Below, one piece after another: positions 51,382 to 64,000 of a stretch of DNA of 64,000 nt. The DNA comes from Xanthobacter sp. NM-59. GTDB lineage: Bacteria > Pseudomonadota > Alphaproteobacteria > Rhizobiales > Xanthobacteraceae. Under the pieces are notes generated by a model. That model saw only the letters and a program-made list of their open reading frames with translations. It ran no database searches and was not told where the DNA came from. The DNA lies in assembly GCF_021401125.1 (NCBI RefSeq), contig NZ_JACBFQ010000007.1, forward strand, positions 124,001-188,000, given 5' to 3'. Numbering within the stretch: the first letter of the stretch is position 1; every line of letters starts with the position of its first letter. The position numbers and the translations under genes are program-made.

Positions 51382-51951
51382 TCAGTCCTTGGCGCGCTCC
51401 ACATAGGAGCCGTCGGCGGTCATGATGACCACGCGGGTCCCGGCGGAGATGTGGGGCGGCACCATGGTGCGCACACCGTTCGAGAGCACGGCCGGCTTGT
51501 AGGAGGAAGACGCGGTCTGGCCCTTCACGGTGGGCTCGGTGTCCACGATCTCCAGCACCACGCGGGCCGGCAGCTCAATGGCGATGGGATTGCCGTTGTG
51601 CGTGGAAAGCATGCACTCCATGCCTTCCTGCAGATACACGGCGGAATCGCCCATCACTTCCTTGGAGACGGTCACCTGATCGAAGTTATCAGGGTTCATG
51701 AAGGTGTAGCCGTCCGAATCCTCATAGAGGAAGGTGTGGGGGCGATCCTCCACGAAGGCGCGCTCCACCTGCTCGGTGGTACGATAGCGCTCGGAGATCT
51801 TCACACCGTCCGAGATGCGGCGCATGTCGAGCTGCGTGACCGGCGTGCCCTTGCCGGGGTGAATGTTCTCGGCGGTGAGCACCACATAGAGCTTGTCGTC
51901 GATATCGACCACATTGCCTTTACGCAGGGAGCTGGCGATGACCTTGACCAC
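51382..51951 (-). CDS. efp: Translation elongation factor P
   Basis: Relieves ribosome stalling at polyproline stretches. 189 residues in three OB-like domains. The modifiable Lys is in [16 protein letters not shown], the position that EpmA lysylates. [20 protein letters not shown] and the C-terminal [20 protein letters not shown] are typical. The start is GTG at 51951 ([15 protein letters not shown]) with GGAAG 7 bases before. It is divergent from epmA, its modifying enzyme. Confidence 0.97.
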
Positions 51952-52088
51952 GTCGCGTCTTCCTTGAACTTTTCGCGGCGTCGTGCCGCTCGTCTTCGTT
52001 GGCGGGCAACATACCCATCTTCGCGCCGAGCGCCACCCTCGCGGCGGTGTTTCAGGCGCCCAAAGCGGCTTGTGAAGGACGTTTCCCC

Positions 52089-53153
52089 GTGAAATTGGTA
52101 TCAGGATCCGGTCAAAGCCCGTGGTGGGACCGGGACGTGCACGCTGACCGCCGCCCCTTCCTGCTGGCACGCGGTCGCATCACGGCGATGGTGCGGGCGT
52201 GGTTCCTGGAGCAGGACTTCGTTGAGGTGGAAACCCCCATCCTCCAGCTCTCGCCCGGCAACGAGGCGCACCTGCACGCCTTCGCCACGGACCTTATCGC
52301 GCCCGACGGCGCGCGCCACACCCTGCATCTTCGCACCTCGCCGGAATTCACCGCGAAGAAGCTGCTGGCGGCAGGCGAGCCCCGCATTTTCGAGCTGGCG
52401 CGGGTGTTCCGCAATCGCGAGCGCGGCATGGCGCACCATCCGGAATTCACCATGCTTGAATGGTACCGGGCCGGCGCGCCGTACAGCCAGCTGATGGAGG
52501 ATTGCACCGCGCTGCTGCGGCTCGCAGCCCGCATCGGCGGCGCTTCCCGCTTCACCTACCGGGGCGCGGAGTGCGACCCCTTCGCGGAGCCCGAGCGCCT
52601 CACCCTCACCGCGGCCTTCGCGCGGCATGCGGGCATCGACCTTCCCGCCGTGGTGCCCGCCCCCGGAGCGCCGGCCGATCCGGCACCACTGGCAGCGGCC
52701 GCGCGCGCGGCGGGCATCCGCGTGGCCGAGGACGACAGCTGGGCGGACATTTTCTCGAAGGTGCTGGTGGAGCGCATCGAGCCTCACCTGGGCATGGGCC
52801 GCCCCACCCTCCTGTGCGACTACCCGCTGAGCGAGGCGGCATTGGCGCGGCCGAAGCCTGAAGACCCGCGCTTTGCCGAGCGGTTCGAGTTCTATGCCTG
52901 CGGGCTGGAGCTGGCCAACGCGTTCGGCGAGCTCACCGATGCCGACGAGCAGCGCCGCCGTTTCACCCACGAGATGGAGCTGAAAAGCCGCCTTTACGGT
53001 GAGCGCTATCCCCTCGACGAGGACTTCCTGGCCGCCCTGCACCAGATGCCCGAGGCTGCCGGCTGCGCCCTGGGCTTCGACCGGCTGGTGCTGCTGGCCA
53101 CGGGCGCGCGGCGCATCGAGGACGTGCTGTGGGCACCTGTGGCGGCGCCCTGA
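52089..53153 (+). CDS. epmA: EF-P lysine lysyltransferase (EpmA/PoxA/GenX)
   Basis: A truncated class II lysyl-tRNA synthetase homologue, 354 residues, that attaches beta-lysine to EF-P. The N-terminal anticodon domain of LysRS is absent; the catalytic core carries motif 1 ([20 protein letters not shown]), motif 2 ([31 protein letters not shown]) and motif 3 ([20 protein letters not shown]). The start is GTG at 52089 with AAGGA upstream. It is divergent from efp. The usual third partner, the lysine 2,3-aminomutase EpmB, is not in this window. Confidence 0.96.
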
Positions 53154-53180
53154 GACGGGTTGTCGCCGGGAGCGCCGGCC

Positions 53181-53492
53181 TCAGGAGATCTCGAACAGGG
53201 TCGAGAATCCGGAAATGTCGAACACCTCGCGGATCTGCGGCTGCAGGGAGGTGAGGGAGAGGCGGCGCTTGGAATTGCGCATGGCCTTGCCGGCCACCAG
53301 CAGCGCGCGCAGGCCGGAGGAGGAGACATAATCCACCCCGGCCAGATTGATGATGATCGGGCCGTCTGTCATGGACAGCACGTCCATGAGGCTGGTCTCG
53401 AACGGCTTAGCGTTGGGCGTGTCGAGTCGCCCGGCCACCTTCAGCAGCACCGCGCCGTCCGCCTGTTCACGCTCAATGTGCATGGACGTCAT
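53181..53492 (-). CDS. STAS domain anti-anti-sigma factor (RsbV/SpoIIAA-like)
   Basis: A cytosolic partner-switch protein of 103 residues. The STAS fold ends its second strand with PIIINLAGVDYVSSSGLRAL, where the second or third Ser is the phosphorylation site of SpoIIAA-type proteins. When dephosphorylated such proteins sequester an HPK-like anti-sigma kinase. A suitable kinase is encoded at 55650 and an RsbU-type phosphatase at 62543. GGAG precedes the ATG at 53492; a second ATG lies at 53483. The start is inside the end of the Na/Pi-like gene, so it is coupled to it. Confidence 0.92.
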   Translation of the reverse strand: MTSMHIEREQADGAVLLKVAGRLDTPNAKPFETSLMDVLSMTDGPIIINLAGVDYVSSSGLRALLVAGKAMRNSKRRLSLTSLQPQIREVFDISGFSTLFEIS

Positions 53493-55101
53493 TCCGCTCC
53501 GCCGACATCAATCCGTCACTGGGATTATCGTCATTCGTCGCAGGGCGCAACGCCACCGCGGTCCGACGAATCAACCAGATGGCGCGCTCGAACAGGCTGG
53601 TGGCCAAGAGCAGGCGGCGCGCATCCTCCCCCGCCCCAAGGGAAGCGCCCACCAGGCTCCGGCGGATATCGTTGAGCAGCTTGCTGCGATCGGCGGTCAG
53701 GGCGGCGATCACGTCATAATCCTCCGCGCTCGATGCGTCGGCCAGCAGCAGCACGTTCACCCGCAGCGATTCGGAAAGGTTGAAGGCCAGCTGCGGCGGC
53801 CGCTCATAGCTTTCCACCACCTCGGCGAAATCGTGCAGCGTGTCCTGCAACACACAGATCATTTCCAGCAGGGATTGCTGGCTCAGCGCGATATCGAGGC
53901 TCTCGCGCTCCGGAGCGCGGCCGATGAGATCGGTCAGGAAATGCTCGGTGCTCCGCGCGATGCTGGCCGCGCCGCGCCACAAGGCCAGGCGCTCGCCGGC
54001 GCCCGCGCTCTCCGCCACGTCGAGGTCGGGCAGCAACGTGGGCAGGAGCTGGATCAGCCGCTGGATCTCCCTTTCCGAAAGGTCGAGCGCGGTGGCCGGC
54101 GCCTCCATGGCCCGATCATGGATATAGCGCGGCCGCGAGGCGCCATCCTCCAGCGTCGGCGGGCTGAGGCGGATGGCGATCGTCTCGGTGACGCCGCGCC
54201 CGAACGCCACCGGAACGGCACCGGCGAGCTGCAGCGCGAGGAACAGCAGCGAGAGCGAAACGGCGGGCTGCCCGCCGCCCACCGCGGACAGCCATTGGGC
54301 GGGATCGGCCCCGGCACTCCCCACCGCCAGCCACAGTGCGAACACGGCCGCGCAGCCGATGGCCTTCACCAGGATATGCACATAGCAGAGCTGCCGCCCC
54401 GTGCCCTCAAGCCCGCCGGCGGCGATCAGCGTCGCCAGACCGGAGCCGAGATTGGCGCCCAGCACCACATAGAACGCGCCGTCGAGCCCCATGACCGAGG
54501 ATTGCAGCAGCGCCAGAACCAGGATGGTTGGCGTGGAGGACGACTGGCTGAGCGCCGCCGCCGCCAGCCCTGCCGCGAAGCCCAGCAGCGGCGAAAAGCC
54601 GGCATCGAGCGCCGCCCCCAGCACCGCCGGATCGATGGCTCGCGGCCCCTGCTTGATGAAATCGAGCCCCAGCAGTGCCAAGGCGAGGCCGAGCGCCACC
54701 CCCATCCATTCGCGCCACGACGGCTGGCGGTCCAGCCGGAGCTGGAAGCCGAACCCCACCAGCGCCACCAGATAGAGAACCACCAGCCGGAAATCGATGG
54801 CGGCCACGAACACCAGCGCCGCCGTTCCCACATTGCCGCCGGCCACCACCGGAATGGCATCACGCGTGGTGAGCACGCCGCCGCGCACCAGGTTGCCGCA
54901 GATGATGGCGACCGCGTTGCTCGACTGGGTGGCCGCGCCGGCCAGGGTGCCGGAAAGAAGGCCCGTCAGCGGCGAGCGGGTGGCGCTGCGCAGCATCCGG
55001 CGCACGCCCCGACCCGTGGCCTGCTGGAGGTGGGAGGAGAGGGACTTGAGCCCCACGAACAGAAGGCCCAGCCCCGCGAGGATTTCCGCCAGAATGGTCA
55101 T
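53473..55101 (-). CDS. Na/Pi cotransporter family protein with PhoU-like C-terminus
   Basis: Inner-membrane protein of 542 residues in the NptA/PF02690 family. Two inverted repeats carry the hallmark QSS motifs: GAATQSSNAVAIICGNL and ALSQSSSTPTILVLALLQSS. About nine helices occupy residues 1-310. The remaining ~230 residues are soluble and helical, like the PhoU-type domain of bacterial family members. I start at the ATG at 55101 (MTILAEILAGLGLLFVGLKS), the family N-terminus. It overlaps the STAS gene by 20 bp, an unusual partner that suggests transport is linked to the partner switch. Phosphate is the family substrate but is not proven here. Confidence 0.88.
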   Translation of the reverse strand: MTILAEILAGLGLLFVGLKSLSSHLQQATGRGVRRMLRSATRSPLTGLLSGTLAGAATQSSNAVAIICGNLVRGGVLTTRDAIPVVAGGNVGTAALVFVAAIDFRLVVLYLVALVGFGFQLRLDRQPSWREWMGVALGLALALLGLDFIKQGPRAIDPAVLGAALDAGFSPLLGFAAGLAAAALSQSSSTPTILVLALLQSSVMGLDGAFYVVLGANLGSGLATLIAAGGLEGTGRQLCYVHILVKAIGCAAVFALWLAVGSAGADPAQWLSAVGGGQPAVSLSLLFLALQLAGAVPVAFGRGVTETIAIRLSPPTLEDGASRPRYIHDRAMEAPATALDLSEREIQRLIQLLPTLLPDLDVAESAGAGERLALWRGAASIARSTEHFLTDLIGRAPERESLDIALSQQSLLEMICVLQDTLHDFAEVVESYERPPQLAFNLSESLRVNVLLLADASSAEDYDVIAALTADRSKLLNDIRRSLVGASLGAGEDARRLLLATSLFERAIWLIRRTAVALRPATNDDNPSDGLMSAERNDVHAH

Positions 55102-55649
55102 GCGCGCATCGCGGGCTCCCCGGCCCAGAACTCCGGCCACCACAGCCGGACGACTTCAACAGGCCCACCTCAACACGCAGTGTCGCCCAAGCCTCAGGCG
55201 GCGGCCTCACGCGATGAGCCCACCCGGTCAGCCTTGCACCGGCGCCAGGGCCGCAGTCGCGACGTGGCCTCAAAGATTTAAAACGGAAGCGATAGCGAGC
55301 CGATGTGTCAGTGATGCGACAGCATTGCCCCCCTATCGCGGAACTCCGGACACCACGGACCGCCGCCCGCGCGCCCGCCTTCGCACGCTGGCGCAACGAT
55401 CATTCCCGTGGCCGGAGCCTCGTGAACCTGTTCGCCGTAAGGGGCACGCGCCTTCCCCGTGGCGCGGCACCTCTCCCGCGCGCCAGGGCGGACTGTGGAG
55501 GGGAAACGTTGGGGCCCCCTTTCTCCACAGCGAGAGGAAGGGCAGTGCCTTGAAAGCGCGGCATCCGCGCCGCAACCGCTCCCGGCTCTCCCCCACCCAA
55601 ATGCGCGAGCGGGAAGGCGCCCATGGGCACCCTGTCTCTTGAATGCTGG
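55102..55649. other. Geneless region between the HATPase and Na/Pi-like genes
   Basis: 548 bp on the minus-strand side of the partner-switch genes. No supported gene. GTGGAG at about 55494 and CTCCAC at about 55523 form short inverted arms around GGGG/CCCC tracts. The AT-rich spot AAAGATTTAAAACGG near 55272 may be part of the Na/Pi-STAS promoter. Confidence 0.4.
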
Positions 55650-56105
55650 TCAACCCGCGGCGCGGGCGGGCGCGGCCACCAGGGTCAGGTGGTTCTCGTC
55701 CCCCTCGCGGCGATAGGTGAGGCTCTCCAGGAAATGGCGCATCAGCTGCACCCCGTGCCCACCGATCCGCGCATCCTCGATGGAATCGACGGCCTCCGGC
55801 TCGGCCAGGGTGGTCGGGTCGAAGGCGACACCGTTGTCGATGAGATGGACCGCGATGCGCCCCCCCTCCAGGCCATGCACCTCGACGCGAATCAGCGGCT
55901 CGCGCGGGGACTGGGCAAAGCCGTAGGAGATGACATTGGTCAGCGCCTCCTCGACACTGAGCTCAAGGCCGAAGCGCATGGCCGGCGGCCAGTCATGTTC
56001 ATCGGCCAGGTCGCCGAGCCAGGATGTCACCTGCGCGATGGAGGCGATGTCGGCGCCGACCCGCAGCGCAGAAATCAGGGTGTCGGCGGCGGGCGGCATG
56101 GTCAT
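55650..56105 (-). CDS. ATP-binding anti-sigma-type kinase (RsbW/SpoIIAB-like HATPase)
   Basis: A cytosolic GHKL ATPase of 151 residues, the kinase/anti-sigma class. The N-box is LELSVEEALTNVISYGF, the G1 box is HLIDNGVAFDP and the G2-type loop is RIGGHGVQLMRHFLESLTY. Proteins of this class phosphorylate a STAS partner and hold a sigma factor or other target. Starts at 56105 and 56099 are both possible. It lies between the GNAT gene and the Na/Pi-STAS pair on the same strand, so all three partner-switch components are within 9 kb. No sigma factor gene is visible nearby. Confidence 0.9.
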   Translation of the reverse strand: MTMPPAADTLISALRVGADIASIAQVTSWLGDLADEHDWPPAMRFGLELSVEEALTNVISYGFAQSPREPLIRVEVHGLEGGRIAVHLIDNGVAFDPTTLAEPEAVDSIEDARIGGHGVQLMRHFLESLTYRREGDENHLTLVAAPARAAG

Positions 56106-56316
56106 GGCCCGCGGCTTAGGTGGTCGCGCAGCAGAAGATTGCATCGCGCCCCAAGCGGGCCGCGCCCGATGCCGGCCGGCGGTGCTGATGGACGCTGACC
56201 GCGATGCGCGGCGCCCGGGATGGGATCTCGATCTTCATGTCCGCCGTACTTTCGGAGAGGGACCCCGCGCGCGCAAGGGGCATCGCGACACCCTCAGCGC
56301 TCGACTGCCGCCAATC

Positions 56317-56357
56317 TAGAGCATTTCCCCGGCGCGTTGAATCGCAAAAATGCTCTA
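56317..56357. repeat. Dispersed TAGAGCATTT inverted-repeat element
   Basis: TAGAGCATTT and AAATGCTCTA flank a 21-base loop containing GGCGCGTTGAATCGC. A half copy lies at 18814-18850 with GGGCGTTGAATTGC in the same place. It sits in the gap between the GNAT and HATPase genes and could form a stem that separates them. Confidence 0.6.
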
Positions 56358-56381
56358 TGCCGTTGCTTTGGCGGGCCTTCT

Positions 56382-57068
56382 TCAGGCGTCCCTAAAACGT
56401 GGGCGGGCGAACATCACCCCCGGCTCGCCGCCGGGCAGGCGCCGGCGCTCATAGCCCCGCCAGCCTTCGGCGAACAGGGCGCGCTGGCGGTCGAAATCCC
56501 GCGGGTCCACCACCACCACCTGCTCGGGATCGTAGGACGAGCCGTCGCGCAGCATCACGTAGCGCGCATAGCCGCCGAAGAAGAATTCGATGCCGACAAT
56601 GGGAAAGCCGCCGGCCAGCAGGTTCGACCAGCTCGGCGTATTGATGGGCGCGGCGGTGGAGAACAGCACCATGCCGGCCGGGGCCGAGGCCACACGCTCC
56701 GCGATCACCGCGCGCTGGAAGCCGCGACCGCGATGGTCAGGGTGCACGGAAGCCCCGGCGAGCCGGCCAATCGAGGTTTCCGGCGGCAGGTTCAAGAGCC
56801 GGTGCGGCCCGTCGGCGGGGGTGTGCTCGTGCTGGAGGATGCCATAGGCAACGAGGGCTTCCCCGTCGAAGATCCCCACGGCGGAGCCGCGCCCTTCGGC
56901 AACGACGCTCTGGAAATAGCTGCGGCTTTCCGGCTTCACCACCTCGGGGCGGGTGACCGGGCCGATGGCGACACGATGGAGCGCCTCGATGGCATCCACA
57001 TCGTCCGCACCCAGCGGGCGGGCGTGAACCGACATTGCCGCGGGCGCGGCGCTGCGAGCCGTGGTCAC
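56382..57068 (-). CDS. GNAT family N-acetyltransferase in the sensor operon
   Basis: 228 residues. The acetyl-CoA motif is SVHPDHRGRGFQRAVIAERV. Upstream RPEVVKPESRSYFQSVVAEG and YGILQHEHTPADGPHRLL do not resemble well-known GNAT enzymes. The start is GTG at 57068, overlapping the stop of the binding-protein gene (GTGA), so it is co-translated with it. In context it may modify a protein or a compound sensed by the system; the substrate is unknown. Confidence 0.82.
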   Translation of the reverse strand: MTTARSAAPAAMSVHARPLGADDVDAIEALHRVAIGPVTRPEVVKPESRSYFQSVVAEGRGSAVGIFDGEALVAYGILQHEHTPADGPHRLLNLPPETSIGRLAGASVHPDHRGRGFQRAVIAERVASAPAGMVLFSTAAPINTPSWSNLLAGGFPIVGIEFFFGGYARYVMLRDGSSYDPEQVVVVDPRDFDRQRALFAEGWRGYERRRLPGGEPGVMFARPRFRDA

Positions 57069-58075
57069 GTGATCACCTCAGCATAATTAAGCATGGCGAT
57101 GGGCGGATAGACGCCGAGCTGCTTGGCCACCGACATGTTGATGATGAGCGCGAAGCGCTTCAGCGTCTCAATCGGGATATTCTGCGGCGGCACATGATCC
57201 ACCAGGATCTCGACCGCCTTGGAGCCGGCCAGCTGGCCTACGGAATAATAGCGGCTCACCAGCCCCACCAGGCCCAGCCCCTCCCGCAGGAAGAACTCGG
57301 TGGCGCCGAAGGTGGGCAGCTTGGCCTGAAGGGCCGCCGGGCCGACGCGGTCGAAGATGGAGGCGAGGAAGGTATCCGCCGGCAGATACAGCCAGTCGGC
57401 CCCCTTCTCCTTCAGGTCACGCACGAACCCCTCGACCCCGTCGCCGGTGGCGCGGGTGCCGTCCATCTTGAGCGGCTGCGCCAGCACCTCCACCCCGATG
57501 CCGGCGCAGAAGGCGCGCATCTCCTCGATGATGACCAGTGAGTTCTTCTCGTTGGGCGAATAGATCACGCCCACTTTCTGGAACGGGCGATAGCTCTGCA
57601 TGGCGCGCATCTGCACGTCGGTGGGCACCACATGCACGGCGCCGGTGACGTTGCGGCCGGAAGAGGAGAGCGAGGGCGCGATCTTCACCTGCACCGGCGC
57701 CGCCACCAGCGCGAACACCACGGGAATGTCGTGCACGAACGGCGCCGCGGGTGGCGCGTCATAGGGCCCCACCACCGCCAGGGTGTTGGGCGTGCCGTAG
57801 GTGTAGATGAGGTCCGGCTTGAAGGTGGGCAGCACCTCCGCCAGGATGGGCTTCACCTTGGCCGCATCGCGCTCCACATCGCGGGTGAGGAAGTCCACCG
57901 CGATCTCATTGGCGGCGAAATAGTCGCGGAAGCCGCGCTCCACATCGGTCTCGCCCCGGAAGGTGAGCATCAGGATGCGGAACGGGCGGGCTTGGCTGTT
58001 GGCGGAAGCGGCCTGCCCGAGCAGGCTCGCGGCCCCGGCGCCCAGGCCCAGGGAAAGAAGCGTACGTCGGTCCAT
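57065..58075 (-). CDS. ABC-type substrate-binding protein (PF04392 family)
   Basis: A periplasmic binding protein of 336 residues. The start MDRRTLLSLGLGAGAASLLG has a hydrophobic signal with cleavage around ASANSQA. FRILMLTFRGETDVERGFRD, LAEVLPTFKPDLIYTYGTPN and VFALVAAPVQ-V-KIAPSLSSSGRN then GAVHVVPTDVQMRAMQSYRP follow the TrpX-like/PF04392 pattern (the RNVTG loop is clear). No ABC permease or ATPase is nearby; instead it is coupled to an MFS transporter (TGATG overlap) and a GNAT gene. A role as ligand sensor for the neighbouring membrane proteins is therefore more likely than ABC uptake. Confidence 0.87.
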   Translation of the reverse strand: MDRRTLLSLGLGAGAASLLGQAASANSQARPFRILMLTFRGETDVERGFRDYFAANEIAVDFLTRDVERDAAKVKPILAEVLPTFKPDLIYTYGTPNTLAVVGPYDAPPAAPFVHDIPVVFALVAAPVQVKIAPSLSSSGRNVTGAVHVVPTDVQMRAMQSYRPFQKVGVIYSPNEKNSLVIIEEMRAFCAGIGVEVLAQPLKMDGTRATGDGVEGFVRDLKEKGADWLYLPADTFLASIFDRVGPAALQAKLPTFGATEFFLREGLGLVGLVSRYYSVGQLAGSKAVEILVDHVPPQNIPIETLKRFALIINMSVAKQLGVYPPIAMLNYAEVIT

Positions 58076-60060
58076 CACACAGGGCTCCCTTCCGAGGAGG
58101 CCGCGCGGGTGGCGCGGCGTGAAGCAGACGGCGCGGAAAAGCTGCGTCCCGATAGCGCAAACACCACCGCTCCCGCCACAACCACCGCGCCCATCATGGC
58201 GGTTGTAAGCGAAAATCCCACCGCTGCCAGCAGCGCGCCCGCCCCCGCCGGCCCCGCCGCATTGCCGGAACGCTCCACCAGACGGAACAGGCCCAGCACC
58301 CCGGCGGAGGAAAAGCCGGAATTGGCGGCCGTATCCGCCACCAGGGCGGACTGGGAGGCGATGGAGAGCGCCTGCCCCAGCCCCAGCATGGCCAGAGCGA
58401 ACACGATCAGCATCACCGAAGGATGGAGCGGCACCGTCAGCGCCCCCAGCCCCGAAACCAGCCCGCCCGCCACCACGAATGTGGCGCGGGCGTTCCAGCG
58501 GTCGGCCAATGCCGCGAAGATGGGCACCGCCACCACCATCAGCAACGGATAGATCATCTGGAAACGGCCGATGGCGGCGGAGGAATAGCCCTGCCGCTGC
58601 AATTCCAGCGGCACCAGCAGCAGGCAGAGGGCCGCGAACAGCAGCTTGGCGGGAAAGGCGCAGCCCACCAGCAGCGCCATCAGGCGCGGCGCGCGGGTGG
58701 CCTTCACCAGATCGCCCACCCCGATGCTCACATGGGCGGCGCGGCGCGGCGCGCGCGGCACCACCATCAGCACCACGCCCATGGCGATGACCGCCACCAC
58801 CCCCGAGGCCCCCAAGGCGGCGGAGGTTCCCAGCCGGTCGGCGATGACGCCGCCGATGGGCGGCCCGCACAGGCACGCCACCATGATGGCCCGCACGAAC
58901 ACTGCCAGCGCCGCGCTACGCCCCGCCCCCTGGGAATGATCCACCACATGCCCCTGGGCCGAGACGAACACCAGCGCATAGCCCGCCCCGGACACGATGC
59001 GCGCGGCGAGAAACAGCAGGTAATGCTCGCTCACCGCCGCCAGCCCATAGCCGGCGGCCGCCGCCAGCGCGCCGAGCACGAAGCCTGAGCGCCGCCCCAG
59101 GCGCTCGGACAGGCCGGCGAACGGAATCTGGCACAGGGCCACCACGGCCATGAAGGCGACGATGGGAAGGCTCGCCGCCGTGTCCGGGCTGATGACGCCA
59201 TCGGAGGGGGCGAGCGACTGGGCGAGGCGCGGCAGGAACGGCCGCGTCAGCTCTTCCGAGAGCATGAACAGGAACAACGCCGGCCGGATGGCCGCCGCCA
59301 GCCCGCTCTCGCCCGCCTCGGTCTCACCAATTCCAGTGCGCTGGGAGAGCGCGTCGAGGCGCGCCAACACTGCGGCGTCGCCGCTGGCGCGGGCACGTTC
59401 GCGCATGGCTTCGTGCCGTGTGCTCAGGCGCGCCACCTGCGCGTCCACGGGGTCGACAAGGCCCTCTGCCTCGGTCCCGGCGCCACTGCGGTACAGCGCA
59501 AGGCGCCCGCGCGCCAGGGCGCGCACCCGCTGCTCCACCGCGGCCACCGCCTCGATGCCGCGGGTGCCGACCACCAGGGCCACCAGCTCCAGCGCCACCA
59601 GCAGCGCCACCACACCGATGAAGGCCACGTCCACCAGCACCGCCGCCACCTGCTGCCACACCACCGAGGGGTCGATGGTGATGGCGATCTCGCCCACGGT
59701 CGCGCCCTCGCGCAGCACCGGCACCCGCACCACGGTGGGAGCGTCGAGCCCTTGCACGGAGCCGGAAGAGGCGCCCGCGCCGGAGGGCAGCAGCAGCCGG
59801 ATCTGCGCGAACTCCCCGTTGGCGGCCCGCAGCTCGTCGAAATAGCCGCTCACGCCCACCAATTGGTCCAGCGGAATGCCGGTGGCGTCGGCCCGTTCCA
59901 CCAGGGCCGCGGCGGAGCGGCCGACGCTTTCCGCCTTCACCAGGATGGCGGGAACAATGGTGTGCTCCGCCGCCCGGTGGGCCCCCCAGGCGATGAGCGC
60001 CAGCGCCGCGCACAAGATGAATGCGATGGCAACCGTGATCCCTGCCCGAAGCCCCATCAT
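58075..60060 (-). CDS. MFS transporter fused to an N-terminal membrane sensor module
   Basis: 661 residues with an unusual architecture. TM1 (about 7-27), a periplasmic domain of about 110 residues and TM2 (about 138-164) form a receptor-like module. A cytoplasmic linker (165-255) follows, then a 12-helix MFS transporter (about 257-645) with the loop-2 motif GLSERLGRRSGFVLGALAAA and, in the second half, ALADRWNARATFVVAGGLVS. The periplasmic part resembles those of three neighbouring genes (SVGRSAAALVERADATGIPL is the shared region). The start overlaps the stop of the upstream sensor gene (ATGATG) and its end overlaps the binding-protein start. The transported compound is unknown. Confidence 0.88.
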   Translation of the reverse strand: MMGLRAGITVAIAFILCAALALIAWGAHRAAEHTIVPAILVKAESVGRSAAALVERADATGIPLDQLVGVSGYFDELRAANGEFAQIRLLLPSGAGASSGSVQGLDAPTVVRVPVLREGATVGEIAITIDPSVVWQQVAAVLVDVAFIGVVALLVALELVALVVGTRGIEAVAAVEQRVRALARGRLALYRSGAGTEAEGLVDPVDAQVARLSTRHEAMRERARASGDAAVLARLDALSQRTGIGETEAGESGLAAAIRPALFLFMLSEELTRPFLPRLAQSLAPSDGVISPDTAASLPIVAFMAVVALCQIPFAGLSERLGRRSGFVLGALAAAAGYGLAAVSEHYLLFLAARIVSGAGYALVFVSAQGHVVDHSQGAGRSAALAVFVRAIMVACLCGPPIGGVIADRLGTSAALGASGVVAVIAMGVVLMVVPRAPRRAAHVSIGVGDLVKATRAPRLMALLVGCAFPAKLLFAALCLLLVPLELQRQGYSSAAIGRFQMIYPLLMVVAVPIFAALADRWNARATFVVAGGLVSGLGALTVPLHPSVMLIVFALAMLGLGQALSIASQSALVADTAANSGFSSAGVLGLFRLVERSGNAAGPAGAGALLAAVGFSLTTAMMGAVVVAGAVVFALSGRSFSAPSASRRATRAASSEGSPV

Positions 60061-60806
60061 CGGCCGATCTTTCCTGATGCGCCGGCCAGGGTCGGCGATC
60101 CGTGCCCACCCGCGCCGCGCGCGGCAGCCTGCCCCACCAGTTCCTGCCCCGCCAGTTCCTGCCCCGCCAGTTCCTGCTCGACCCTGGCATGGGCGCTCTG
60201 GGCCTCAGCCAGGGCCGCGCGCGCCGCCGGTGGCCAGCGCGCGGGATCGGCCGCCTTCAGGGCCGCGCGGCGCAGAGCCACCGCCAGGAGCAGGCCGATG
60301 GCGATGGTGGCGAGGCACGCCCCCGCCAGGGCCGGCCAGGCGATTCGCCACAGGTCCCGTTGCAGCGCGCCCTCCCCCTCCGCCAGCACCTGCGGGTCAT
60401 AGCGCAGCACCACCTGCCCGATGGGCGCGTCAAAATCGTTGAGGACCACGCGGCGCACCGAATGGGGCGGCTTCTTCTCCGACGCCGCGCCCACGCGGGA
60501 AGCGACGCTGGAGAAGACCACCACGCCGCGCTCGTCCACCAGGTCGATGGACTGCAGCGCCGGCTCGATCCGCGCCTCGCGTTCCAGCAATGCGGGAAGG
60601 GTCGCCTGGGCCGGCAGGGCGATGCCGAGGGAGGAGGCCCGCTCCACCACCGCGGCAAGGCGCGATGCCGTCACCGCGAATCGCGCTTCCACCGCGGAGC
60701 GGTAGGCATTCACCAGCGTGACGGACGAGAAATAGGCGCCAAAGGCGACGCAGGCGGCCGCGATCAGCGCAAACACGCCAATGAGCCACAGCGCTGTGCG
60801 CGTCAT
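60057..60806 (-). CDS. Membrane sensor-like protein, minus operon
   Basis: 249 residues; no family recognised with certainty. Visible: TM1 (about 5-26, ALWLIGVFALIAAACVAFGA), a periplasmic domain of about 125 residues with RLAAVVERASSLGIALPAQA and SIDLVDERGVVVFSS, TM2 (about 155-178), and a cytoplasmic tail of about 70 residues with three GQELA-type repeats. The periplasmic pattern (helix, G-I-x-L, then strand with D-x2-G) looks like a single Cache domain. There is no kinase, HAMP or methyl-accepting part. GGAGG lies about 9 bases before the ATG. It is first in the operon sensor-MFS-binding protein-GNAT. Confidence 0.75.
   Translation of the reverse strand: MTRTALWLIGVFALIAAACVAFGAYFSSVTLVNAYRSAVEARFAVTASRLAAVVERASSLGIALPAQATLPALLEREARIEPALQSIDLVDERGVVVFSSVASRVGAASEKKPPHSVRRVVLNDFDAPIGQVVLRYDPQVLAEGEGALQRDLWRIAWPALAGACLATIAIGLLLAVALRRAALKAADPARWPPAARAALAEAQSAHARVEQELAGQELAGQELVGQAAARGAGGHGSPTLAGASGKIGR
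60137..60180 (-). repeat. 15-bp in-frame tandem repeat
   Basis: CCAGTTCCTGCCCCG occurs at 60137 and 60152, with a third partial copy from 60167. On the minus strand it encodes QELAGQELAGQELVGQ near the C-terminus of the sensor-like protein. Because the unit is a multiple of three, copy changes would keep the frame. Confidence 0.9.
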
Positions 60807-60970
60807 CCGGGGATTCCTCCAAATGGAGTACACGACACCATGTCAGGCTCGCAGAATGATGAAAAGCATCCTGAGATTGCAGGTTTTTTTAAACCTTGCG
60901 CGGTTTTTTTCTGGTTTGGTCCGGCTGGGGCGGTTAACGTCCCGCCCGTCCGCACAGCAAAGCATATTCC
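60807..60970. promoter_or_regulatory. Divergent control region of the two sensor operons
   Basis: 164 bp serve both operons. AGGTTTTTTTAAACCT at 60881-60896 is a palindrome (AGGTTT-N4-AAACCT), and GGTTTTTTTCTGGTTTGG follows from 60902, so GGTTTTTTT is repeated 20 bp apart. These A/T tracts stand out in the GC-rich context and fall where both promoters should lie, making them candidate regulator or sigma-factor sites. No standard -35/-10 pair is convincing. Confidence 0.5.
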
Positions 60971-61717
60971 ATGACGTTCGTAAGCCGGCTGGCATTTGTC
61001 GTGATCTTCGCGGTGATCGCTACGGTGGTGGCGGTCGCCGTGATCTGCTTCGCCGCCAGCGAGCGTGTCAATTTCCAGATCGAGCGCGCGCGGGTCGCCA
61101 ATCTGCTCACCAACCTGCGCACGGCCACCGAGGCCAACCTGTCCATCGGCCTCGCCCTCGACCAGGTCTCGCCGCTCCAGGAGCGCATTGAGCGTGAGAA
61201 GGCGAGCGACCCTTCCGTGCTCGCCATCGACATCTTCAATTCGGCAGGCCGCGCCTTCTATTCCACCGACCGCAGCGTCATCGGCGAAAGCGTGCCCACC
61301 GACTGGGTGCGGCGGCTGGCCGACGCCGGGATCTGGCAGACGGTGGAGCGGGGAGACACCGTGTTCGGCACCCATTTCGAGAACGACCTCGGCGTTGCCG
61401 GCGGCATTTCCGTCACCACCTCCGATCGTGGCCGCATCGCCCGCTCCGACTCGCTCGGCCTCAGCCTCACCAGCCTCGTCGTCCTGCTGGCGGCGGTGGG
61501 CGGGGCGACCGCCGCCCTCGCCGCCGGCATCTTCAACCATGTCATGTCGCGCCCGTTCGAGCGGGTGGCGCGAATCCTGTCCGGCGAGGCCGTCAGCACC
61601 AGCGGGGATGTGGGCCTGCCACGCCTGGCCACGGCCGCGCAGCACAGCTGGACCCAGGCGGCGGCCCGGGTCGACCGGGGCCTGAGCCAGCTCGGAGCAC
61701 TCGACGATGCGGCCTGA
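60971..61717 (+). CDS. Membrane sensor-like protein 1, plus operon
   Basis: 248 residues, family not recognised with certainty. TM1 (about 7-28, LAFVVIFAVIATVVAVAVIC), a periplasmic domain of about 130 residues with ATEANLSIGLALDQVSPLQE and AIDIFNSAGRAFYST, TM2 (about 163-190), and a cytoplasmic tail of about 55 residues starting RPFERVARILSGEAV, which looks like half a HAMP. The domain pattern matches the divergent sensor gene and the MFS fusion. Its end overlaps the next gene by 11 bp. Confidence 0.75.
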   Translation: MTFVSRLAFVVIFAVIATVVAVAVICFAASERVNFQIERARVANLLTNLRTATEANLSIGLALDQVSPLQERIEREKASDPSVLAIDIFNSAGRAFYSTDRSVIGESVPTDWVRRLADAGIWQTVERGDTVFGTHFENDLGVAGGISVTTSDRGRIARSDSLGLSLTSLVVLLAAVGGATAALAAGIFNHVMSRPFERVARILSGEAVSTSGDVGLPRLATAAQHSWTQAAARVDRGLSQLGALDDAA

Positions 61718-62543
61718 TCCCGGGCGGGCGCGCCTCATCACCAGCCTCGCCGCCTTTCTCGTCACCCTGATCGTGGGCGGCATCGCCGCGGCCATTCTCA
61801 CCACCAGCTATCGGGCGCGGGTGGAAGACGGTGCCCGGCGCGATGCGCTCGTGATCGGCACCTCGGTGGCGCGCACGCTGGCCCAGCAGTTCGAGAAGGC
61901 CGAGCGGTTCGGCGTCCCGCTCAAGCTTCTGCCCGGGGTGGAAGACCACCTGAAGGCGACCCTGGCGGGCACACCCGCCATCACGCAGATCATCCTGCGC
62001 GGGCCCGATGGCCGCGAGATCCGCAGCGCCACGGGCGACCAGCCCAGCGTCGATTCCACCAGCGCCCCGGTGGTGGTGAGCGGCAACACGGTCGCCACCG
62101 TGGAGGTCGCGACCAATCCGGTGGCCCTCACCGACCAGTTCGGCGGCGTGGGCGTTCAGGCGGCGCTGGCGGTGTTCATCTTCGCGGCGCTGGCGGCGCT
62201 GGCGGCTGGCGTCACCGCCGGCCTCACCCTGGACCGCAGCGAGGCACGCCTCACGGCGGCGCTGGCGCGGGCCGCCGCGGGCGATTTCGAGCCCGAGCCG
62301 GGCAGCTCCGGCCGCCCTGAGCGCGCACGCGGGGCCATCGGCCGCGCCTTCCGCGCCCTGGCCCAGGGCAACCGGCACATCCGCGAACGCCGCGCCGTGT
62401 TTGACGCCTATGCGGAGGAACTGCTGGCGGTGGATTTCGACGGCAGCATCCGGCCCGACGTGGAACGCCTGCGGCGCGAGGTGCTTCAAACACCTCCGGC
62501 CGCCGACAAGGACGGGGCCCGCCATCAGGAGCGGGGCGAGTGA
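61707..62543 (+). CDS. Membrane sensor-like protein 2, plus operon
   Basis: 278 residues with the same plan: TM1 (about 10-32, ITSLAAFLVTLIVGGIAAAI), a periplasmic domain with SVARTLAQQFEKAERFGVPL and ITQIILRGPDGREI, TM2 (about 148-172), then about 105 cytoplasmic residues with a HAMP-like stretch (RSEARLTAALARAAAGDFEP) and an acidic, charged end. There is no catalytic domain. Its TGA overlaps the ATG of the phosphatase gene (TGATG), so the two products are made in step and probably interact. Confidence 0.75.
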   Translation: MRPDPGRARLITSLAAFLVTLIVGGIAAAILTTSYRARVEDGARRDALVIGTSVARTLAQQFEKAERFGVPLKLLPGVEDHLKATLAGTPAITQIILRGPDGREIRSATGDQPSVDSTSAPVVVSGNTVATVEVATNPVALTDQFGGVGVQAALAVFIFAALAALAAGVTAGLTLDRSEARLTAALARAAAGDFEPEPGSSGRPERARGAIGRAFRALAQGNRHIRERRAVFDAYAEELLAVDFDGSIRPDVERLRREVLQTPPAADKDGARHQERGE

Positions 62544-64000
62544 TGCTTCTGCGCACCCGGATCACCCTCATCGTCGCCCTCGGCTTCAGCGTTCTCATGC
62601 TCGGCATCTGGGGTGCCACCGTGCTGCGTGACCGCGTGGCGGAAGCGCGCGAAGGCGAAGTCGCCATTGCCGGCCAGAGCGTGCTGTGGCGCGAGATCGT
62701 GGCGTTCCAGACCTCGAACCTCTCGCGCATCCTGGAGCGGGTGGACCGCTCGGCCCCCTTCCGCACAGCCCTCGTCGCCGCCGACCGCCCCGGCATCGCC
62801 TCCGCATTGAGTGACCTGGGCGTGGATGTTTCCGACCCGGACACCGCGCTTGAAGTGGTGGGCGCCGACCGCGAGCTGATCTACAGCGCCGGCGGCGCGA
62901 GCCCCACCCGCAGCGTGCTCGACGCCGGCAGCCTCGACCGGGCCCTGAAGGGAGAGGCCATCCTCGGCCTGCGGCAGGTGGCGGGCAATCGCATCCTGGT
63001 GCTCGCCACCCGCACCATCGAGCTGCCGGGCAAGGGCACCGTGGTGATCGTGCTCGGGCGTGACGCCAGCATCGGCATGGACCGCTTCGCCCGCGGCATC
63101 GGCGCCTCCACCACCCTCGTCACCGTGCGCGGGCGGGTGGTGGCCTCCACCGACATGCGCCTGTGGGAGCGGGCCAAGCTCGACATCGCCCCGCGCCATG
63201 CCCTGTCCCGGCGCATCGAGCTCGACGGGCATGATTGCAGCGTCACCTCCATCCCCGTGGAGGACATCAACGGCAGCACCATTGCCGCGCTGGTGAGCCT
63301 CATCGACAATACCGAGACCCTCCAGGCCACCAGCCTCATTCGCCGGTCCGCCATCATCGGCGCCATCCTGATGGCTGTGCTGGGCGTGATCGGCCTCAAC
63401 ATGTTCCTCTGGTACAGCTTCCGCCCGCTGGAGGAGGCCATCGACGTGCTGCAGGCCCTGGCGCGCGGCGACACTTCGGTGACCGTGGAGCATACGGGCT
63501 CCGACGAGATCGGGCGCATCGCATCGGCGGTGCTGGCCCTGCGCGGCAATGTCCAGGCCCTGGCCGAGGCCCGCCGCCAGCGCGAGCGGGTGCGCCGCCG
63601 GCAGGGCATCGTGATTTCCGGTGAGCTCAAGTCGCTGGCCGATTCCATCGACCCCACCGACCGCGAGGAGGTGCTGGCGCTGCTGGCCAACAGCTCCCGC
63701 CTGGAGAAGGACGACGAGCTGAAGCGCGTGGCGCGGGTGCTGCACGACCTCTCCCGCCGCATCATCGAGCAGCATACGCGCCTGAGCTCCATGGTGGTGG
63801 AGCTGCGCGAGGCCCTCATCACCAAGACCAAGCTCGCCGGCCTGCAGCAGGAGCTGGAGATTGCCCGCCAGGTGCAGCTCGCCATCCTGCCCAAGGAATT
63901 CCCGCCCGACGCGCGCGTGGCCGTGCACGGCCAGATGACGCCGGCCCGCGAGGTGGGCGGCGACTTCTACGACTACTTCATGATCGACGAGCGCACCCTC
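62543..64000 (+). CDS. Membrane PP2C/SpoIIE-type phosphatase with sensor and HAMP (RsbU-like), partial
   Basis: 486 codons are visible; the gene continues past the window. TM1 (about 7-26), a large periplasmic domain (30-265) with GVDVSDPDTALEVVGADREL and VIVLGRDASIGMDRF (double-Cache-like), TM2 (267-290), HAMP (RPLEEAIDVLQALARGDTSV), then a long helical linker. The SpoIIE/RsbU signature begins at about residue 433: LQQELEIARQVQLAILPKEF, then the metal-binding REVGGDFYDYF. Such phosphatases dephosphorylate a STAS protein and release the switch; the STAS and HATPase partners are encoded at 53181 and 55650. It is the only catalytic output in the plus operon. Confidence 0.92.
   Translation, partial: MLLRTRITLIVALGFSVLMLGIWGATVLRDRVAEAREGEVAIAGQSVLWREIVAFQTSNLSRILERVDRSAPFRTALVAADRPGIASALSDLGVDVSDPDTALEVVGADRELIYSAGGASPTRSVLDAGSLDRALKGEAILGLRQVAGNRILVLATRTIELPGKGTVVIVLGRDASIGMDRFARGIGASTTLVTVRGRVVASTDMRLWERAKLDIAPRHALSRRIELDGHDCSVTSIPVEDINGSTIAALVSLIDNTETLQATSLIRRSAIIGAILMAVLGVIGLNMFLWYSFRPLEEAIDVLQALARGDTSVTVEHTGSDEIGRIASAVLALRGNVQALAEARRQRERVRRRQGIVISGELKSLADSIDPTDREEVLALLANSSRLEKDDELKRVARVLHDLSRRIIEQHTRLSSMVVELREALITKTKLAGLQQELEIARQVQLAILPKEFPPDARVAVHGQMTPAREVGGDFYDYFMIDERTL

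Follow-up and report, generated by a model that had tools for sequence, protein, structure and literature searches.

Partner-switching modules of the RsbU/V/W type relay signals through phosphorylation of a STAS protein. The cluster described here raises the question of what such a module senses, and what it controls, where no sigma factor gene lies beside it. The cluster occupies the right-hand end of a 64,000-nucleotide stretch of Xanthobacter sp. NM-59 DNA (the window; contig NZ_JACBFQ010000007.1, positions 124,001 to 188,000). It encodes an RsbU-like phosphatase, an RsbV-like STAS protein and an RsbW-like HATPase (together, the trio), three membrane sensors, a sensor joined to a major facilitator superfamily (MFS) transporter (the sensor-MFS), a PF04392 periplasmic binding protein, a GNAT-like acetyltransferase and a Na/Pi-cotransporter-like membrane protein. 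Co-inheritance of these genes as a single system is highly probable. The best reading of their function, with a probability of about 0.5, is a signal path that runs from a ligand through the phosphatase and the STAS protein to an effector other than a sigma factor. What the sequences themselves show is co-inheritance, intact catalytic motifs, the sensor/HAMP-like/MFS architecture, gene fusions and the missing local sigma gene.

Gene organization

All ten genes named in the original prediction, which was made from the letters of the window, were confirmed by coordinates and Pfam matches. They span 53181-64597 in window numbering, the end of the phosphatase gene lying outside the 64-kb window, as follows (E-values of family matches in brackets; aa, amino acids).

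53181..53492, minus strand: RsbV-like STAS protein, 103 aa (Pfam STAS 1.5e-17; ant_ant_sig 3.9e-20)
53473..55143, minus strand: Na/Pi-cotransporter-like membrane protein (PF02690 Na_Pi_cotrans 1e-36)
55650..56144, minus strand: RsbW-like HATPase, 164 aa (HATPase_c_2 1.2e-18)
56382..57068, minus strand: GNAT-like acetyltransferase (weak match, Acetyltransf_9 7.8e-5 at 23.1 bits, below the cut-off of 25)
57065..58078, minus strand: PF04392 periplasmic binding protein, with a twin-arginine-like signal in MDRRTLLSLG (ABC_sub_bind 7.3e-27)
58075..60060, minus strand: sensor-MFS, 661 aa, predicted Cache-like sensor, transmembrane segment, HAMP-like linker and MFS transporter (MFS_1 5.6e-32)
60057..60833, minus strand: sensor 1, stand-alone membrane sensor, with homology to the additional sensor region at the N terminus of fused sensor-MFS proteins
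60971..61717, plus strand: sensor 2, stand-alone membrane sensor, weakly Cache-like (dCache_1 in some relatives; conserved place)
61707..62543, plus strand: sensor 3, membrane sensor, 278 aa, with homologues elsewhere that are sensor-MFS proteins of ~600 aa
62540..64000, plus strand, gene continuing to 64597 (L004:10540-12597): RsbU-like phosphatase with an N-terminal membrane part, HAMP and SpoIIE domains (HAMP 3.1e-8; SpoIIE 3.9e-50)

The genes form two divergent units. The minus unit reads sensor 1, sensor-MFS, binding protein, GNAT, HATPase, Na/Pi and STAS; the first three junctions overlap by 4 bp each and Na/Pi-STAS by 20 bp. The plus unit (sensor 2, sensor 3, phosphatase) has overlaps of 11 and 4 bp. 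The prediction that almost every junction overlaps by 1-20 bp thus holds for six of the eight, and fails at GNAT-HATPase and HATPase-Na/Pi, where gaps of 237 and 506 bp are found. The translation and conservation of M15 place the true Na/Pi start probably 42 bp further in (MTILAEIL). The SpoIIE domain of the phosphatase begins at residue 484 and therefore lies almost wholly to the right of the window. None of the three sensors matched a fitting family in the Pfam scan of the cluster proteins.

Conservation and co-inheritance

Loci for comparison were seeded on the sensor-MFS, so that all frequencies given here are conditional on that gene. The best 80 of 104 sensor-MFS relatives from a scan of 84,980 species genomes were used, and the 57 loci flanked by 8 kb or more on both sides were counted, 23 being dropped for short flanks. 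Counts rest on tblastn (thresholds 1e-10 for the binding protein, 1e-3 for GNAT, 1e-20 for an alanine-racemase-family protein, 1e-30 for SpoIIE, 1e-6 for STAS and HATPase, and 1e-20 for Na/Pi), because gene calling with a codon model trained on the window gave poor results or none at some loci (L049, L092, L093, L105 and L109). A HATPase was counted where the HATPase part itself was matched, rather than a cyclase alone; this stricter rule left the counts unchanged. The sample includes several species of one genus, and the scan set overlaps with a second set, drawn from the order of the window (L036 and L073 are the same contig). The order sample comprised 199 genomes; a sensor-MFS relative at an E-value of 1e-10 or better occurred in 22, the window's own included, and the neighbourhoods of 20 of the 21 others were compared. 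The nearest named relative is Xanthobacter agilis, with a sensor-MFS 82% identical to that of the window.

Of the 57 flanked loci, 55 have the binding protein, 46 GNAT, 40 SpoIIE, 35 HATPase, 29 STAS, 18 the racemase and 13 Na/Pi; 28 have the full trio. Association with the switch follows similarity of the MFS part: SpoIIE occurs in 33 and the trio in 25 of the 34 closest loci, as against 7 and 3 of the 23 distant ones. The order sample gave the same picture, with SpoIIE near the MFS gene in 14/14 and the full trio in 11/14 of the closer relatives (L033-L046), and with no trio member, and hence 0/6 SpoIIE, in the distant relatives (L047-L052). The co-occurrence of sensor-MFS and trio on which the single-system proposal hinged is thus found across genomes. 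The phosphatase is accompanied by STAS or HATPase in 36/57 loci, across alpha-, beta- and gammaproteobacteria. SpoIIE matches were found in 50 of 101 order genomes, and 9 of the 12 best sit in this cluster.

Phosphatase and binding-protein trees agree on three groups, betaproteobacterial loci standing next to Xanthobacteraceae, and the path distances of the phosphatase, MFS, binding-protein and GNAT trees correlate at 0.83-0.91 over 34 loci; these trees are quick searches that gave long-branch warnings. Co-conservation, congruent trees and the gene fusions described below all speak for the original proposal of one system.

The switch proteins

The cluster encodes the components of an RsbU/V/W-type switch with their expected features. 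The STAS protein stands alone and carries, in the motif YVSSSGLR, a serine at the usual phosphoacceptor place, whose position and role we assume from SpoIIAA; its nearest PDB structure is 4hyl, followed by the anti-sigma F factor antagonists 1th8_B and 1tid_B. The HATPase has complete nucleotide-binding motifs of its kinase family: E66, N70, D103, G128, G129 and G131, which we take to be the residues of these motifs, are identical in 41/41 aligned sequences. The SpoIIE/PP2C phosphatase motifs GGDFYD, ADVSGKG, DG and DD (D475, D493, D613 and D666, presumably the metal-site residues) are kept in 93-98% of 54 aligned sequences.

Such components are scarce elsewhere in the 4.96 Mb genome. PF13581 matches 17 places, of which solely the window HATPase is strong (68 bits), the other 16 scoring at most 35 bits in open frames of at least 456 aa. 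PF01740 has three matches; the only stand-alone STAS is that of the window, the other two lying in frames of 496 and 626 aa. PF07228 (SpoIIE) has two matches, the second in a 289-aa frame. From these scans the cluster is the sole complete partner switch found in this genome.

A second, divergent STAS (116-120 aa, with FMASIGIR or FIASIGIR) precedes the HATPase in six Xanthobacter loci (L054, L055, L056, L057, L062 and L091), where a window-type STAS is also present after the Na/Pi gene; at the Xanthobacter tagetidis locus (L058) the STAS is solely of the divergent type, and it falls short of the STAS threshold. Sequence comparison, made without a tree, marks this extra protein of some Xanthobacter loci as the odd one. 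The idea that the window STAS partners the Na/Pi protein only was rejected, as in sequence it is like the STAS proteins that neighbour the HATPase in other families. A remnant of the divergent STAS in the 237 bp GNAT-HATPase gap was also considered; the best match (E-value 0.087 over 27 residues) was unconvincing.

Sensor-transporters and stand-alone sensors

The predicted structure of the sensor-MFS (predicted local distance difference test score, pLDDT, 88.5) starts with a long helix; a small domain of helix plus strands follows, then another long helix and a helical linker, and finally the MFS helices. Foldseek placed it with VMAT1/2, MdfA and NorA (best E-value 1.7e-10), and by predicted structure and profile search the transporter part has a DHA/VMAT-type MFS fold. 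Positions 152-246 of a profile of 47 sensor-MFS relatives match the sensory rhodopsin transducer 2f95_B at 1e-5, in what we take to be the HAMP region of the transducer. With Pfam at an E-value of 0.01, MFS_1 was found in 47/47 of these aligned relatives, HAMP in 10/47 and sCache_3_2 in 3/47. The linker is termed HAMP-like because the window copy has no significant Pfam HAMP match; sCache_3_2 likewise gave none there. From the models, the sensor-MFS is a Cache-like/HAMP-type module joined to a DHA/VMAT-fold transporter. The DHA1/VMAT antiporters MdfA, NorA and VMAT2 share the fold of the MFS part and, to our knowledge, have no N-terminal Cache-like sensor or HAMP-type linker. A Nitratidesulfovibrio plasmid (L007:6003-10278) carries an annotated ABC (ATP-binding cassette) substrate-binding protein together with an MFS protein of 1016 aa, whose long N-terminal region is weakly sCache-like.

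Sensor 2 gave dCache_1 at 0.1 or better in 9/37 relatives (best 0.0026); naming the sensor fold was dropped, the Cache matches being weak and the PDB matches unconvincing. The sensor 3 homologue is ~600 aa long in most other alphaproteobacterial families seen. Three such long forms had no Pfam match, and the model of one (pLDDT 83.6) has an MFS fold (1e-6). On this modelling, sensor 3 corresponds to a second, divergent and longer sensor-MFS of many relatives. The ancestral set thus seems to have comprised two sensor-transporters, each beside a stand-alone sensor, and a membrane HAMP phosphatase. In four loci (L070, L095, L107 and L120) a domain of the stand-alone-sensor type and the sensor-MFS form a single protein, which suggests that the separate proteins interact; the extra domain of L107 is nearer to sensor 2 than to sensor 1.

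The binding protein and its companion enzymes

The binding protein belongs to PF04392, and its nearest solved structures are 3lkv, 3lft and 6hni, which hold phenylalanine, tryptophan and tyrosine, according to PMC6816091. It scores 94 bits with the TrpX equivalog model, where the cut-off is 390, and the tyrosine-selecting Glu-263 of CD0873 aligns with a threonine in the window protein; the ligand is therefore taken as no more than amino-acid-like. The proposed ligand-sensing role is supported at the level of the family, all three nearest solved relatives carrying an aromatic amino acid.

An RR motif, presumably a twin-arginine signal, is present in 50/79 aligned binding-protein N-termini, with an uncertain start in several. 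Downstream of the binding protein the next gene is usually GNAT, followed by the alanine-racemase-family protein in 18/57 loci. In other lineages the binding protein is followed by an ATP-grasp protein (Azospirillum) or a ketopantoate-transferase-like, PanB-like protein (Roseospira). Neither the window locus nor the locus in any of the nine Xanthobacter rows contains the racemase. No ABC permease or ATPase was found by Pfam among the ten cluster proteins; relatives were not searched systematically. In Azospirillum brasilense (L114:14971-16651), two uncharacterised proteins of ~250 aa without a Pfam match stand after the ATP-grasp gene and recur in relatives.

Candidate effectors of the switch

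A class III nucleotide cyclase region is present in 12 loci (8 among the 80 and 4 in the order set; L036 and L073 are a single contig). It is fused to the HATPase in eight rows (7 distinct contigs) and stands directly before it in four (L076-L079); the assignment was checked by Pfam on L033 and L077. Fusion or adjacency to the HATPase makes the cyclase the most likely effector in the families that carry it. One fusion (L033:14262-15884) has an N-terminal ~190 aa without a Pfam match. Of the 80 scan loci, 19 have the Na/Pi gene, almost all of them in the window's clade, and no locus contains both cyclase and Na/Pi. In the window's clade the Na/Pi protein, by its position between HATPase and STAS, is the most likely candidate effector. 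Control of transport by the switch, one of the options first proposed, stays a conjecture; the spread of Na/Pi is limited, and the cyclase-HATPase loci point to an enzyme as effector there.

The prediction that no sigma gene lies nearby was upheld. No open reading frame translation in the 8 kb right of the window reads as a sigma factor, and in 1/104 loci (L095) a homologue of one of the five sigma factors of the genome lies nearby. A sigma gene just right of 64000 was rejected; judged from translations only, the phosphatase end is followed there by GlcD-like oxidase, RimM, AHCY and CarD-like genes. The switch thus differs from SigB- and SigF-type systems in that no cognate sigma factor is encoded with it; a distant one could be encoded elsewhere. 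PF04542 identifies five sigma-70 region 2 proteins in the genome, none near the cluster, which from their sequences look like RpoD, RpoH and three of the extracytoplasmic function (ECF) type, with none of the SigB/SigF type.

Pfam found no transcription factor family and no GGDEF domain among the ten cluster proteins; for GGDEF, the genes to the right were judged from translations. Other signalling genes accompany more distant relatives. In some, the sensor-MFS and binding protein stand beside a hybrid histidine kinase and a GGDEF-EAL response regulator, or beside PAS-GGDEF-EAL; in Azospirillum they stand beside a 7TMR-DISM hybrid kinase. In L107:6180-8552 and L120:7119-9206 a protein with protein-kinase, dCache and HAMP domains lies divergently beside the fused sensor-sensor-MFS gene. 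These links are of neighbourhood, from proteins scanned in single loci and relatives grouped by BLAST clustering, with no control count.

Control region and flanking genes

The region between the divergent units contains one further feature.

60911..60942, plus strand: bipartite element CTGGTTT-17 bp-TAACGTCC, promoter or operator candidate, 28 bp 5' of the sensor 2 start

The element is exact and of fixed spacing in the window and in 15/80 scan loci, all of the window's clade; it deviates in L061 and L091 of that clade and is missing from the 14 order loci. It has a single exact copy in the genome. A regulon was rejected, there being no further site at up to 2 mismatches; at up to 3 mismatches there are 20 sites (the others all with 3), against 75 for the reversed control. 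A consensus scan of 53000-64000 found no standard sigma-70 promoter.

On the other side of the cluster, the STAS gene is adjoined by two genes at 51382-53153 that we take, from translation, to encode elongation factor P and an EpmA-like protein; this arrangement looks ordinary.

Comparison with known systems

The gene combination was not found described in the open-licence full text of PMC, which is weak evidence of novelty; a review of STAS-only proteins contains neither 'MFS' nor 'cyclase'. Among the closest systems is RbaV-RbaW-RbaY of Rhodobacter capsulatus, likewise an alphaproteobacterial STAS/HATPase/phosphatase set for which no cognate sigma factor was found and whose STAS protein was proposed as the output; it differs in that no transporter system is described, 'MFS' and 'transporter' having no occurrence in the text of that paper (PMC3999984). 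In SiaABCD of Pseudomonas aeruginosa (PMC7647112) the phosphorylation state of a STAS-like protein depends on a PP2C phosphatase and a kinase, and the pathway includes a diguanylate cyclase instead of a sigma factor. Among NCBIfam models, SiaA ranks second for the window phosphatase (7e-18, well under the cut-off). The diguanylate cyclase output of SiaABCD has no counterpart in the window cluster, which lacks a GGDEF match. We know of no sensor-MFS, binding protein or GNAT in that system. The aromatic amino acid binders CD0873, VC_1101 and SP1069 are of the same PF04392 family and provide the closest solved structures; CD0873 belongs to an ABC import system (PMC6816091), whereas no ABC gene is among the ten proteins here.

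Proposed mechanism and alternatives

In the signal path proposed above, the exported PF04392 protein would capture an amino-acid-like ligand. Sensor 1 would pair with the sensor-MFS, the two being a single protein in some bacteria. Sensors 2 and 3 would constitute another such pair of sensor and transporter, partly degenerate, and either the state of the ligand or the transport flux would then reach the HAMP-SpoIIE phosphatase via Cache/HAMP bundles. The phosphatase would dephosphorylate the STAS protein, which would bind the HATPase kinase, and the HATPase would release (or take up) an effector other than a sigma factor: the class III nucleotide cyclase in several families and, most likely, the Na/Pi protein in the window's clade. 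The MFS, with its VMAT/DHA drug-proton antiporter fold, would probably export the ligand or a GNAT-modified form of it. The ligand, the effector in the window's clade and the direction of transport are guesses.

Several observations weigh against this path or against the unity of the cluster. The sensor-MFS occurs with no trio member in 17/57 flanked loci, and a detectable STAS, or STAS and HATPase, is missing from 3/14 closer order loci. In X. tagetidis the binding protein, GNAT and racemase lie at a separate locus (L161:10047-12928) and are followed there by a PAS-GGDEF gene; the sensors, MFS, HATPase, phosphatase and divergent STAS stay together. The divergent STAS that adjoins the HATPase in the six Xanthobacter loci and in X. 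tagetidis makes the STAS partner of the HATPase uncertain. Tree congruence is in part shared species history, its figures having no housekeeping control. Most of the system's range lacks the Na/Pi gene, and the window sensor-MFS lacks a Pfam HAMP match. Finally, two Azospirillum plasmids (L005:18450-19035 and L009:17144-18103) carry an annotated rpoH 7-8 kb from an MFS relative; this relative is distant and ~500 aa long, stands before alpha/beta-hydrolase, histidine-phosphatase and chemoreceptor genes, and lies outside the 104 loci.

One alternative, an accidental meeting of a sensor-MFS-binding protein operon with an unrelated Na/Pi-STAS-HATPase group, is suggested by the gaps that separate GNAT, HATPase and Na/Pi and by the X. 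tagetidis locus, which as a locus lacks Na/Pi and a window-type STAS. Chance is largely refuted, and was rejected as very improbable, by the genome-wide scarcity of the trio and by its co-conservation in relatives, the phosphatase keeping a STAS or HATPase neighbour in 36/57 flanked loci. RsbW-type HATPases usually bind sigma factors, and the HATPase might be an anti-sigma factor acting on a sigma-70 family member encoded at a distance in the genome. The five region 2 proteins offer candidates, the 17 bp spacing of the bipartite element resembles a non-standard promoter, and the Azospirillum rpoH loci point the same way. This classical control is nonetheless quite unlikely, given the single sigma homologue among the 104 loci, the lack of a SigB/SigF type among the five and, in R. 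capsulatus, the failed search for a cognate sigma factor of RbaW (PMC3999984).

The other alternatives accept one system and give it another purpose. GNAT enzymes often inactivate toxins, and the MFS could export a toxic amino-acid-like compound that GNAT inactivates, the binding protein and sensors reporting its periplasmic level and the switch tuning just the cluster's own expression or activity. The nearest folds are indeed drug and monoamine antiporters, and a conserved promoter-like element with a single exact genome copy is what local control would predict; yet the binding protein, the two sensor-transporter pairs and the varied signalling neighbours (cyclase, cyclic di-GMP, kinases) exceed the needs of an efflux operon, and the cluster proteins include no transcription factor family. 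Self-regulated detoxification is rather unlikely. Cell-to-cell signalling is a similarly doubtful option: GNAT and the racemase, ATP-grasp or ketopantoate-transferase-like enzymes would make or modify an amino-acid-derived signal, the MFS would export it, and the binding protein and sensors would detect its return. The variation by lineage of the small-molecule enzymes behind the binding protein, the continued linkage of binding protein, GNAT and racemase where the X. tagetidis locus splits, and the VMAT-like fold of the MFS are in keeping with this; but the enzymes could equally degrade a nutrient, and neither the window nor the locus in the nine Xanthobacter rows has the racemase, though X. 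tagetidis has one elsewhere.

More tentatively, the core of the cluster may represent a new class of receptor, an MFS 'transceptor' by virtue of its N-terminal Cache-HAMP module, acting with an orphan PF04392 protein, paired sensors and exchangeable outputs. The HAMP module would either report transport to the switch or let the sensor gate the transporter. The outputs would be the STAS/HATPase switch with cyclase or Na/Pi, a hybrid histidine kinase with GGDEF-EAL, PAS-GGDEF-EAL, or a Ser/Thr-type kinase.

Significance

Partner switching is already known; what looks new is the input side, along with outputs that are apparently interchangeable. In our judgement, there are few partner switches for which the input is known, or for which a known output is something other than a sigma factor. 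By genomics this cluster gives both sides, with a periplasmic ligand system as the input and, in relatives, a fused nucleotide cyclase as the output. A Cache-HAMP receptor module joined to an MFS transporter, if true, would link transport to intracellular signalling in bacteria.

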